NCBI GenBank assembly: GCA_003221515.1
Contig: QHSI01000021.1
Span: 1 to 33,299, forward strand
Origin: Candidatus Rokuibacteriota bacterium
Lineage (GTDB): Bacteria; Methylomirabilota; Methylomirabilia; Rokubacteriales; CSP1-6
Length of the DNA stretch: 33,299 nucleotides
Direction: 5' to 3'
The notes under the pieces are model-generated. The model worked only from the letters and a program-made list of their open reading frames with translations, was not told the origin of the DNA and searched no databases. Position numbers and translations under genes: made by a program. Below are positions 6,646-10,445 of the stretch, in pieces. The first letter of the stretch is position 1, and every line of letters begins with the position of its first letter.

Positions 6646-8304
6646 CTACTTGAAGCCGCGGTCGATCGCGACGTCGACGAGCGTGGGTCCGCCGTGGGCG
6701 AGGCAGGAGGCCAGCACGTCGCGGAGATCGCCCGGCTTGTCGACGCGCTCGGCGCGAACGCCCAGCGAGCGCGCGAGCCCCGCGTAGTCGATCTCGGGCT
6801 CCACGAGATCCATCCCTGGATAGATACCGCGCTTGGCCGAGCCGAGGCCAAGGCTCAGCATGCCGGACTTGAGGATCGCGTAGGACGCGTTGTTCGGGAC
6901 CACGTACGTGATCGGCAGGCTGTAGTGGGCCGCCGTCCACAGCGCCTGCGGGGCGTACATCACCGAGCCGTCGCCGATCGTCGCGACGACCTTGCGGCCG
7001 CCCGAGGCAAGCTGAACACCGATGGCCGCACCCATGGCCCAGCCGAGGGTGCCGGTCTTGCTGCCGTAGAGCGACCCCGGCATCGAGAACGGCATGTAGC
7101 GGAGCACGAACGGGAGCGAGGTCGCCGACTCGTCAACGACGATTCCGTCGGCCGGAAGCAGCGACGCCAACGTGTGCATGAGGTGCGCCTGGCCGATGGG
7201 CTTGCGTTCGGCTTCAGCCTCGGCGGTCGCCTTCAGGCGGGCCATCAGCTCGCCCCGCGCCTTGCCGATCTTCTCGACGCGCGCCGCCGCCGCCCGCCGT
7301 TCGGCCTCGCCGAGCCGGGTCCGCAGCGCTCCGGTGAGCTCGGCGATCGCCGTGCGCGGGTCGGCGACGATGCCCAGCGCCACCGGGTAGCTGCGGCCGA
7401 TCTCCCACGAGTCGTCGTCGATCTGAACGACGTGGAGACCGCGCGGAAACGGCTCGCCTTCGGTGTGGAGGAACCAGGTGAACACGTTGGCGCCGACCAC
7501 CAGCAGCGCGTCGCATTCCTCGAGCGCTTTTCGCACCGCCGGCGGCGAGGGATAGAGGCCGCCGCGCCAGAGCGCGTGATGGCCAGGGAAGCTAGTGCGC
7601 CGGTACACCGGCTCACCGTGGACCCGCGCGCCGATCAGCTCGGCGAGCTCGGTCAGCTCGTGGACGGCGCCGGACCGCGCGACGCCGTCGCCGGCGATGA
7701 TGATCGGCGCCCGCGCTCCCGCGAGCAGCCCCGCGGCCCGACCGATCGCGCCAGCCTCCGGTCGAGTGCGCGACGCGACGGGCAACGGACCGGCGCCGGC
7801 GTCCTCGACGACGGCGCCCATCAGCTCCATCGGCAACGAGAGGAACACGGGTCCGGTGGGGGGTGTCAGCGCGATCTTGAGCGCCCGGCGCAACACCCCG
7901 GGGGCTTCCGGGGCCCCGCGGATCTGGTAGGACCACTTCGTGAACTGCTCGGCCATCCGGACCAGATCGCCCGCGAGGATCGGATCATCGACGAGGAACC
8001 GCGTATCTTGTTGACCCGCGGTCAGGACCAGCGGCGTCTTGGCTCGCGCCGCATTGTGGAGGATCGAGAGGCTGTTGGCGAGGCCCGGAGCGACGTGCAC
8101 GTTGGCGACGCCCAGCTGCCCCGAGGCCTGCGCGTAGCCGTCGGCCGCCGCTACGGCGGTGGCTTCCTGGAGCCCCACGACGTACTCGAGGCCGGAGTCC
8201 GGCAACGCGTCGAGGAACGGGAGCTCGGTGGTGCCGGGGTTGCCGAAGAGACGGCGGACACCGGCCGACCGGAGAATCTCCATCAGGACCGCGGCGACGT
8301 TCAT
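6646..8304 (-). CDS. TPP-dependent decarboxylase, benzoylformate decarboxylase-like
   Basis: 552 residues aligning with Pseudomonas benzoylformate decarboxylase (MdlC) through FGNPGTTELPFLD, LQEATAVAAADGYAQASG, NVHVAPGLANS, KTPLVLTAGQQ and the TPP motif IGDGSVMYAPQALWTAAHYS. The TPP-activating Glu (E in LQEA) and the His of NVH (H70 in MdlC) are present. The substrate-contacting Ser26 of MdlC is Thr25 here, and the region of MdlC His281 reads VFTWFLH, so an aromatic or branched 2-oxoacid decarboxylase is likely but benzoylformate itself is unproven. It starts 13 nt after the TAG that ends the PCYCGC reading, consistent with one operon. No mandelate-pathway genes are seen. Confidence 0.85.
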   Translation of the reverse strand: MNVAAVLMEILRSAGVRRLFGNPGTTELPFLDALPDSGLEYVVGLQEATAVAAADGYAQASGQLGVANVHVAPGLANSLSILHNAARAKTPLVLTAGQQDTRFLVDDPILAGDLVRMAEQFTKWSYQIRGAPEAPGVLRRALKIALTPPTGPVFLSLPMELMGAVVEDAGAGPLPVASRTRPEAGAIGRAAGLLAGARAPIIIAGDGVARSGAVHELTELAELIGARVHGEPVYRRTSFPGHHALWRGGLYPSPPAVRKALEECDALLVVGANVFTWFLHTEGEPFPRGLHVVQIDDDSWEIGRSYPVALGIVADPRTAIAELTGALRTRLGEAERRAAAARVEKIGKARGELMARLKATAEAEAERKPIGQAHLMHTLASLLPADGIVVDESATSLPFVLRYMPFSMPGSLYGSKTGTLGWAMGAAIGVQLASGGRKVVATIGDGSVMYAPQALWTAAHYSLPITYVVPNNASYAILKSGMLSLGLGSAKRGIYPGMDLVEPEIDYAGLARSLGVRAERVDKPGDLRDVLASCLAHGGPTLVDVAIDRGFK

Positions 8305-8317
8305 GGCGCGGAAGATA

Positions 8318-8770
8318 CTACCGCGGTGTGGGCGTCGGGGTCCCGAACTTGAGGTACTTCGCGTCGATGGCTGCGCGGATCGCGGCGAGCGGCTTGCCCT
8401 CCGCCTTCATCTGCATCACGTCCCGCGTGATGTCGAGGCAGAGCGTTCAGGTCGCGGCGTGGCTCGTGAAGGTGACCCGGCCCGCCGGCTCGTCCTTGAT
8501 GTAGCAGGAGCGGTTCGAGACGTGGCCGAACCGCTCACACCCACACGTGCACGGGATTTTTCCGAGCGTGTCGGGATTCGCCAGCGCAAACGTGTAGAGC
8601 CGGGCCGCGTCGCCCCTGGCCGCGAAGACGGGCAGCTGACCGCGCGCCACGGTCTGGTTCTGATCGCCGATCGCGTCGATCGTGACGCCGCCATCGTCGG
8701 CCCAGAGCCACCAGACGGCGCCGGTAGCCGTGAGCGCCAGCACGAGGACGACGACGAGTGCCCGGATCAC
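8318..8770 (-). CDS. PCYCGC-family protein with in-frame TGA: candidate selenoprotein
   Basis: Read with TGA 8447-8449 as selenocysteine, this is 150 residues. Residues 1-23 form a hydrophobic signal/anchor, so the protein acts outside the cytoplasmic membrane. The family signature is KIPCTCGC (C74, C76, C78), then FGHVSNRSCYI (C89), then TSHAAT-U108-TLC111-LDITRDVMQM, ending in a TPTPTP tail at a TAG (8318-8320). In PCYCGC proteins (PF13798, from memory) the 'HG..C..CxDI' segment has a CxxC, and here its first Cys is TGA. All 42 codons after TGA keep the frame and family pattern (LDI, KAEGKPLAAIR, IDAKY). Taken as a true stop, the protein would be 107 residues and lack this conserved end. 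Start is GTG 8770, sharing GTGA with the DUF1285 gene. Function of the family is unknown; thiol/selenol redox or metal binding is inferred. The alternative is a nonsense mutation or sequencing error. Confidence 0.72.
8399..8443 (-). promoter_or_regulatory. Candidate bacterial SECIS element
   Basis: Immediately 3' of the in-frame TGA on the minus strand is a perfect stem CATCACG / CGTGATG (8414-8432) with loop CGGGA. The loop starts 21 nt after the TGA and has G as its second base. An outer helix pairs CTCTGCCT (8436-8443) with AGGCGGAG (8399-8406): eight pairs, one of them G-U. Bacterial SECIS elements lie within the coding region with the apical loop about 16-37 nt from the UGA and a G among the first loop bases, which this fits. 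No folding program was run. Confidence 0.6.
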
Positions 8771-9219
8771 GCGCCGCGCTCCAGCGGATAATGCCGTTCC
8801 CCGAGCTGCAGCGTGCCGCGCCCGGTGTCCTCGTCGTACTGGGCGAGCGCCAGGAGCTGGAACGCGGCCGCGCGGCTCAGCCGGGCCTCGAAGGCGCCGC
8901 CTTTGACCGCGCAGTACGGGACGTCGTCGTGGCCGATCCTCAGCGTGCCCGGATCGACGTCCTCGCTCGTGCCGTCGATGAGGACGGCGTTGAGCGCGTC
9001 TTCGCGGCGCTGGATACGGGCGACGACGAAGGGGACGTCGACGACGGCGACCGGGATGCGCACGCGCGTCTGGATGAAGTATCCCTGCCCGTCGCGGCGG
9101 AGGCCCGAGCGGAGATTGGCGAGGATCCCGGGATGGGTGATCTGCACGTCGTCATCGTACCAGTCGCCGTTCACGTCGACCCGGAGGTTCGGGAGGGTCC
9201 ATTGTGCTGGCGTCGTCAT
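8767..9219 (-). CDS. DUF1285-family protein
   Basis: 150 residues from ATG 9219, which overlaps the stop of the MEMO gene (ATGA). The sequence follows the DUF1285 pattern: NLRVDVNGDWYDDDVQITH (about 9-27), LRRDGQGYFIQTRVRIPV and VVDVPFVVAR, then a second half with IGHDDVPYCAVKGG and ARLSRAAAFQLL. These are small soluble proteins of unknown function. There is no signal peptide or catalytic motif. Its stop overlaps the GTG of the PCYCGC gene (GTGA), so the two are translationally coupled. A reading from 9267 would be 16 residues longer but overlaps the MEMO gene further without an SD. Confidence 0.8.
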   Translation of the reverse strand: MTTPAQWTLPNLRVDVNGDWYDDDVQITHPGILANLRSGLRRDGQGYFIQTRVRIPVAVVDVPFVVARIQRREDALNAVLIDGTSEDVDPGTLRIGHDDVPYCAVKGGAFEARLSRAAAFQLLALAQYDEDTGRGTLQLGERHYPLERGA

Positions 9220-10445
9220 TCGAACGAAACGCTGGCGAAGGACACCACCCCCTGAGGATCGGGCCACTGACCGTAGCGCTTCACGCGGCCGGCGCCGCCG
9301 CCGAGCACTTTCAGCAGGGCGTAGATCGGCGAGAGGCCACAGATGCGCCGCCGGTCGCCGTCGCGGGCCACCGCGTCGAAGAACGCCTGCGCGTCCCCGG
9401 CGGCCACCGGCTCGAGCATCTCGCGGTCCTCGCGCTCGATCTGCGCCAGCTCCGGCGCGGAGACGAGCTCGGGATCACCGAAGCGTGGCCCCACGTGCGC
9501 CAGGTCGGCGCCCGCCACCAGCGCGACGCGCCACCCGCTCGCCGCGATCGTGTCGGCCAGCGCGTCCAGGAACCGGGGCACGCGCGGATCGGCCTCGGGC
9601 CGTCGCCCCGCGAGCATCGCCTCATGGGCGAAGCTCGCCAGCACCGGCACGATCCGGATGTCGCGGCGGTCCGCGTAGAGGTAGCGAAGGCACACGGCCT
9701 GGAACTCGATCGAGTGCTCCGTCCGGTGCGCGAGCTCCGAGCCGAAGCAGTCCTGGCGCGACCGCGCAGCCAGCGCCTCGACGAAGTCGCGGTCGACCTG
9801 CGCGGCCCCCAGCGGGCTTTCGTAGTCCTTGCGCGTCAGCGCCCAGGGATCCGCCATCCCGGTGTGGCAGGTGCCGAAGATCACGAACAGGTCCGCGTCG
9901 CATCGCTCCGCGACGTCGCGATAGGCCCACGCGTACGCCGGGCCGCCGCGGTGGAAGTCGATGTGGGGCGCGATGACGGCCCGCACCCGGGAGCCCTCGG
10001 TCCGGTATCCGGCGATCGGACCCGGGCCGTCCGGCGGAGCGAAGAAGCCGTCGATCATCGTTCGGAGCTCGTCGGCCTCTCCGGCGTATGCGCCGCCGGC
10101 GTGGGTCGCCCGGCGCGTCGGCGCGGCGAGGAAGCCGCCATCGATCGACGCACGGCGCTCGGCGAAGCCGGGGCTGTCGAGAAAGCCCTGCTGATCGAGC
10201 GCCTCGGCGATCTCCTCGATCTGGCGCCGCTCGATCAACTTGCCGCCGTGGCGCCGCATCACGGCCGCCTGGATCTCGGCGACCGTGTGCTCGCCGTCGA
10301 ACAGCGACACGATCTCGAGGAGGGGCCCGTGCAGCAGCACGATCGAATCGGTGTACCCCGCGGGATCGCGAAGGGCCACGCAGCTCCGCCCCTCGTGCTC
10401 GACGGGAAAGGCTTCGACGTGGCGGAGGCGCGGTGCGTCGGACAT
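9216..10445 (-). CDS. MEMO/AmmeMemoRadiSam B-like protein with N-terminal PqqD-like domain
   Basis: 409 residues. Residues about 112-409 match the MEMO family (PF01875; AmmeMemoRadiSam protein B, related to the class III extradiol dioxygenase fold): AGGAYAG, VIAPHIDFHRGG (H161), FGTCHTG (H194), HSIEFQAV, VAGADLAHVG and ICGLSPIYALL. The His/Cys set suggests a metal site. Residues about 20-92 form an extra domain resembling PqqD/RRE winged helices (LLEIVSLFDGEHTVAEIQAA ... IEEIAEALDQQGFLD); that assignment is weaker. Partners of the AmmeMemoRadiSam system (AMMECR1 and a radical SAM protein) are not in the window. ATG 10445 overlaps the stop of the M20 gene by one base (TGATG), and the end overlaps DUF1285 (ATGA). 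Function is unknown. Confidence 0.85.
   Translation of the reverse strand: MSDAPRLRHVEAFPVEHEGRSCVALRDPAGYTDSIVLLHGPLLEIVSLFDGEHTVAEIQAAVMRRHGGKLIERRQIEEIAEALDQQGFLDSPGFAERRASIDGGFLAAPTRRATHAGGAYAGEADELRTMIDGFFAPPDGPGPIAGYRTEGSRVRAVIAPHIDFHRGGPAYAWAYRDVAERCDADLFVIFGTCHTGMADPWALTRKDYESPLGAAQVDRDFVEALAARSRQDCFGSELAHRTEHSIEFQAVCLRYLYADRRDIRIVPVLASFAHEAMLAGRRPEADPRVPRFLDALADTIAASGWRVALVAGADLAHVGPRFGDPELVSAPELAQIEREDREMLEPVAAGDAQAFFDAVARDGDRRRICGLSPIYALLKVLGGGAGRVKRYGQWPDPQGVVSFASVSFE

Follow-up and report, generated by a model that had tools for sequence, protein, structure and literature searches.

A gene on the minus strand of the window, the 33,299-nucleotide stretch analyzed here of a contig (QHSI01000021.1) from an uncultured soil bacterium of Candidatus Rokuibacteriota, very probably encodes a short, cysteine-rich PF13798 selenoprotein with selenocysteine (Sec) at an in-frame TGA at positions 8447-8449 (probability about 0.9). 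This reading draws on four lines of sequence evidence that all agree: a TGA at this position throughout the phylum, its alternation with Cys elsewhere, a SECIS-like hairpin, and the Sec machinery of the genome. Judging by conservation and gene presence, the hairpin just downstream would direct SelB and tRNA-Sec(UCA) to insert Sec at the UGA. The insertion would yield a UxxC motif beside a cluster consisting of C-x-C-G-C, a His, and a further Cys. The features of the gene and its surroundings are as follows.

8318..8770, minus strand: predicted PF13798 (PCYCGC) selenoprotein gene; GTG start at 8770, TAG stop at 8318-8320; 150 residues with one Sec
8447..8449, minus strand: in-frame TGA, probable Sec at residue 108; TGA in 77/77 phylum loci, Cys in other taxa
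8438..8449, minus strand: U-T-L-C (UxxC) at residues 108-111, a putative redox motif with which a predicted helix starts (sequence, alignment, and fold model)
8414..8432, minus strand: SECIS-like apical hairpin CAUCACG-CGGGA-CGUGAUG; 7-bp stem and 5-nt loop with G as the second loop position
8537..8554, minus strand: P-C-T-C-G-C motif, residues 73-78, corresponding to the family signature PCYCGC (sequence and alignment)
8504..8524, minus strand: conserved H83 to C89, both invariant in a 16-sequence alignment
8699..8767, minus strand: hydrophobic stretch at the N-terminus (residues 2-24) that is likely to anchor the protein in the membrane (from sequence; fold-model confidence is low there)
8321..8341, minus strand: T-P-T-P-T-P-R tail, residues 144-150, common to the long subfamily
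8767..9267, minus strand: ORF upstream of the selenoprotein gene, sharing GTGA with its start codon; without a Pfam match; relatives have ORFs 64-70% identical to it close to the gene
6646..8304, minus strand: downstream neighbor, a thiamine pyrophosphate-dependent enzyme (acetolactate synthase-like, by domain match), probably not a component of the system

The in-frame TGA and its conservation

An earlier note on this DNA described a gene split by a single TGA, with 42 further codons in frame before a TAG, and direct reading of the minus strand bears this out. The TGA is the sole interruption of the 150-residue frame. The 42 codons after the U read TLCLDITRDVMQMKAEGKPLAAIRAAIDAKYLKFGTPTPTPR and end at the TAG at 8318-8320. 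The read-through protein matches PF13798 over residues 37-149, spanning the TGA, with an E-value of 7.3e-23 and 81.6 bits against a gathering cut-off of 25, and it belongs to that family by this measure. As the note had anticipated, an ORF caller halts the gene at 107 residues (8447..8770). Standard gene calling thereby loses the last third of the protein together with its active-site residue.

Homologues are present in 70 of 95 genomes of the phylum, and the codon at the Sec column is TGA at every one of the 77 homologous loci read there, which speaks against both chance and sequencing error. The column is also TGA in Tectomicrobia (L128), Deltaproteobacteria/Myxococcota (L134), Bacillota (L138 and L141), and part of the Chloroflexota (L140, L142, L170, L171, and L185). 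It is a Cys codon, TGC or TGT, in other Chloroflexota (L130, L131, L133, L168, L169, L172-L179, L182, L184, L186, and L187) and in a metagenome-assembled genome (MAG) of Nanoarchaeota (L139). The alternation of Cys and TGA that the note had proposed looking for is therefore found, and its view that Sec stands in for the first of the two cysteines in a CxxC is supported. As in bacterial selenoproteins generally, the TGA occupies a conserved redox position. Across 16 diverse members the invariant residues are C74, C76, C78, H83, C89, U/C108, and C111.

These observations bear on three other explanations of the TGA. The source genome is a draft assembly in 191 contigs, which would suit a nonsense mutation or a sequencing or assembly error in a Cys-type gene. 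However, the same TGA recurs at all 77 loci of the phylum, and several other phyla have it too, in independent assemblies, while the flanking codons diverge and stay open, so that such an origin is extremely unlikely. A real stop, giving a 107-residue product with a downstream stretch that is rarely or never read, would agree with the ordinary use of TGA here, where it ends the upstream ORF and most homologues at their natural C-terminus. Yet the 42 downstream codons show conservation at the protein level, which extends to C111, the helix pair, and the tail. The Cys homologues continue straight through, and both the Sec machinery and a SECIS-like stem exist. A real stop is thus very improbable. 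That an altered code or near-cognate suppression turns the TGA into another amino acid, such as Trp, has next to no likelihood. No point in its favor was found. In the sequences read, the alternative at the column is only Cys and never Trp, TGA serves as a stop at other places in these genes, and the genome has a complete Sec system.

About six changes between Sec and Cys are needed on a 97-sequence tree, of which the starred branches force only one. Among the 34 Chloroflexota genomes that hold PF13798, selA occurs in 33, with Sec and Cys forms alike, so a lost machinery does not account for the choice between the two residues in that phylum. The phylum of the window, where each homologue read has Sec, and the selA-bearing Chloroflexota with Cys forms make a natural Sec/Cys pair in which one can ask why Sec is kept.

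Several homologues depart from the common layout. Two (L050 and L051) have a TAG soon after the UxxC helix and are missing the last helix and the TPTPTP tail. A second in-frame TGA in about a dozen homologues raised the possibility of double-Sec proteins; in all but one, it is the natural C-terminal stop. The exception, from an NC10 MAG (L055 931-1329, the same as L136), has PCYCGL for PCYCGC, its additional in-frame TGA falls within the last helix, and it looks decayed or erroneous.

A SECIS-like hairpin and the selenocysteine machinery

A bacterial SECIS element is a stem-loop immediately downstream of the UGA in which the first or second loop base is a G. The window gene has such a structure, CAUCACG-CGxGA-CGUGAUG, which starts at a distance of 17 nt, counted from the first UGA base, and belongs to a set with the loops CGGGA and CGUGA. 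For the window gene alone, folding of the TGA region gives a z-score of -3.07. Across 83 TGA loci, the stretch from +15 to +39 relative to the UGA has a mean MFE of -9.3, compared with -5.1 for synonymous recodings, and the 24-nt hairpin stretch averages 4.2 kcal/mol more stable than its recodings. Under this codon-preserving control, the excess is confined to scan windows starting at +12 and +18; those that begin no later than +6, or no earlier than +24, show none at these loci. Sequence by sequence the excess is modest (median p 0.11), and its strength lies in the whole set.

All seven stem pairs form in 45-47 of the 47 distinct long-type sequences, that is, those of the type to which the window gene belongs. 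In two of the 47, the loop-closing pair 23/29 carries a compensatory change from G-C to C-G. The short OS_HP4 paralogues have a different stem, for example GAGGCGC-UGGAC-GCGUCUC, shifted by one base. In the Cys forms, the stems are weaker or displaced overall; several loci retain most pairs, an effect of protein conservation in that stretch. A search with Rfam RF00031 gave no match, nor did it give any in the control genomes, so its silence carries no weight.

Parts of the hairpin also remain in some members of one Chloroflexota Cys-form clade (L169 and L172-L178; CSICVDITQDVM). These remnants are possibly the trace of a Sec-containing ancestor.

The Sec genes and tRNA-Sec that the note had suggested looking for are all in the genome. 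The genes selA and selB are adjacent on one contig (C184), both scoring over their cut-offs. The same contig carries a tRNA-Sec at 69.8 bits, also over its cut-off, and ARAGORN reports a tRNA-SeC with anticodon TCA in this genome. On another contig, selD scores 339 bits, again over the cut-off (L054, C150:27763-28707). The full set expected of a genome with bacterial selenoproteins, selA, selB, selD, and tRNA-Sec, is thus in place. The selD product is itself a Sec protein, with an in-frame TGA in the usual site (CAGU).

A divergent branch of a known selenoprotein family

The note had proposed a new selenoprotein family, and this part does not hold, because the family is on record. A 2026 review lists a “CYCXC family protein (hypothetical protein OS_HP4)” with PF13798 and UxxC (PMC13188914), and its entry for OS_HP4 gives a 2007 study of Olavius as the source (PMC13188914). 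The family also appears in PMC9312934, and NCBIfam holds it as NF041379, “CYCXC family (seleno)protein”, OS_HP4. The review further reports a Methylomirabilota MAG with 63 predicted selenoproteins (PMC13188914). What the window gene adds is a divergent, lineage-wide branch of this family.

The window protein has a PF13798 domain with UxxC, as in the OS_HP4/PF13798 class of the review. Against NF041379 it scores 62.9 bits (E = 2e-17), short of the equivalog cut-off of 90, and it is a homologue and not a member by that model’s own standard. Short paralogues from the same phylum score 122-131 bits, above the cut-off. In the tree, the long clade with the window protein (support 100/98) and the short OS_HP4 clade (100/99) are separate. 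Contigs were scanned with an alignment of the long form, since one that combined both forms proved too divergent. This long divergent branch of a known selenoprotein family is missed by the existing NCBI model.

The long and short forms share the CxC motif, GH, SC(Y/F), and the same Sec column, where the UxxC is followed by a helix and then by a “G...EI/R..ID..Y” helix. Unlike OS_HP4/NF041379 proteins, the window protein is longer, with extra residues ahead of UxxC and a TPTPTP tail. With the Cys forms of PF13798, such as Bacillales lipoproteins, it shares the whole-domain match across the TGA (7e-23) and the conserved set of cysteines described for Parageobacillus (PMC13068155). It differs from the Cys forms in having Sec for the first Cys of the CxxC, and from the Bacillales lipoproteins in a hydrophobic N-terminus without a lipobox Cys.

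Fold, gene neighborhood, and putative function

The AlphaFold2 model of the window protein is confident and compact (pLDDT 86.6) and places Sec immediately ahead of helix 109-123. Foldseek found no significant fold relative in the PDB or BFVD, and a sequence search of the PDB found no relative. The second-ranked PDB hit is the N-terminal domain of CcmH (2kw0; TM 0.54 by target), and both proteins have a similar “GKSxxEI..RYG” stretch. The C-terminal UxxC helix pair could accordingly be proposed as a distant CcmH-like domain that reduces the thiols of apocytochrome CxxCH. Such a role is improbable, given the Foldseek statistics (E 1.3, probability 0.30) and an hhalign probability of 5% over only 23 columns, with the CxxC positions outside the alignment. 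Moreover, genuine CcmH occurs separately in 54 of 60 genomes, the source genome included. No match to PF03918 (CcmH) was found at E-values up to 10. The window protein thus shares a helix pair with the CcmH N-terminal domain (2kw0 and 2hl7) in model comparison but has no significant sequence-profile relation to it. Homology to CcmH is not supported and is a weak lead only.

The note had also suggested a membrane anchor, which hydrophobic residues 2-24 make likely. This segment would lie in the membrane and leave the remainder outside the cytoplasm. The neighbors of the window gene are an ORF without a Pfam match, Memo, and TPP enzymes, and the 25 families listed for the window, which has 31 ORFs, include none of the copper, cytochrome, or thiol-redox families that accompany the relatives. 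Functional inference therefore rests on the relatives. A scan of 82 ORFs, mostly neighbors of related loci with three from the window, found cytochrome c (6), cupredoxin (4), multicopper oxidase (3), COX2 (2), and thioredoxin-like proteins (2); a simple script supplied the neighbor ORFs, and the background control was small. SCO1 lies upstream in L120, CtaG is near the homologue in L125, and COX2 follows the Cys forms in Chloroflexota L131 and L133. Around the short forms are Fer4_5 (6), P-type ATPase-like HAD (3), cytochrome c (3), redoxin (2), and SCO1 (1).

Because the genes of relatives adjoin those for SCO1, CtaG, COX2, cytochrome c, multicopper oxidase, P-type ATPase, and thioredoxin-like proteins, the window protein may, tentatively, be an extracytoplasmic selenol/thiol reductant or metal carrier serving the copper centers and c-type cytochromes of terminal oxidases. 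This is plausible at somewhat less than even odds. The main rival is a Sec protein with a general extracytoplasmic role in thiol redox or metal detoxification and no link to copper centers or cytochromes. It accords with the UxxC motif, the metabolic neighbors in the window, the thioredoxin and redoxin genes near some relatives, and a Parageobacillus Cys member that adjoins an iron-uptake binding protein (PMC13068155). Set against it are the recurrent SCO1, CtaG, COX2, cytochrome c, and multicopper oxidase neighbors of relatives, and it too has a serious chance that falls short of one half.

More doubtful is the specific proposal of a Sec-based extracytoplasmic assembly factor for copper centers or cytochromes, fixed across Rokubacteria/Methylomirabilota, whose UxxC selenol and CxCGC/His/Cys cluster would handle Cu(I) or reduce the thiols of cuproproteins or cytochromes. 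To our knowledge, no selenoprotein family has such an assembly role. The gene company of the relatives makes the function testable in oxidase and copper biology.

The stop codon (TGA) of the upstream ORF overlaps the GTG start of the selenoprotein gene as GTGA. In L116, L122, and L129 the homologue has an ORF nearby that is 64-70% identical to this one (8767-9267), and the upstream ORF is an uncharacterized conserved neighbor.
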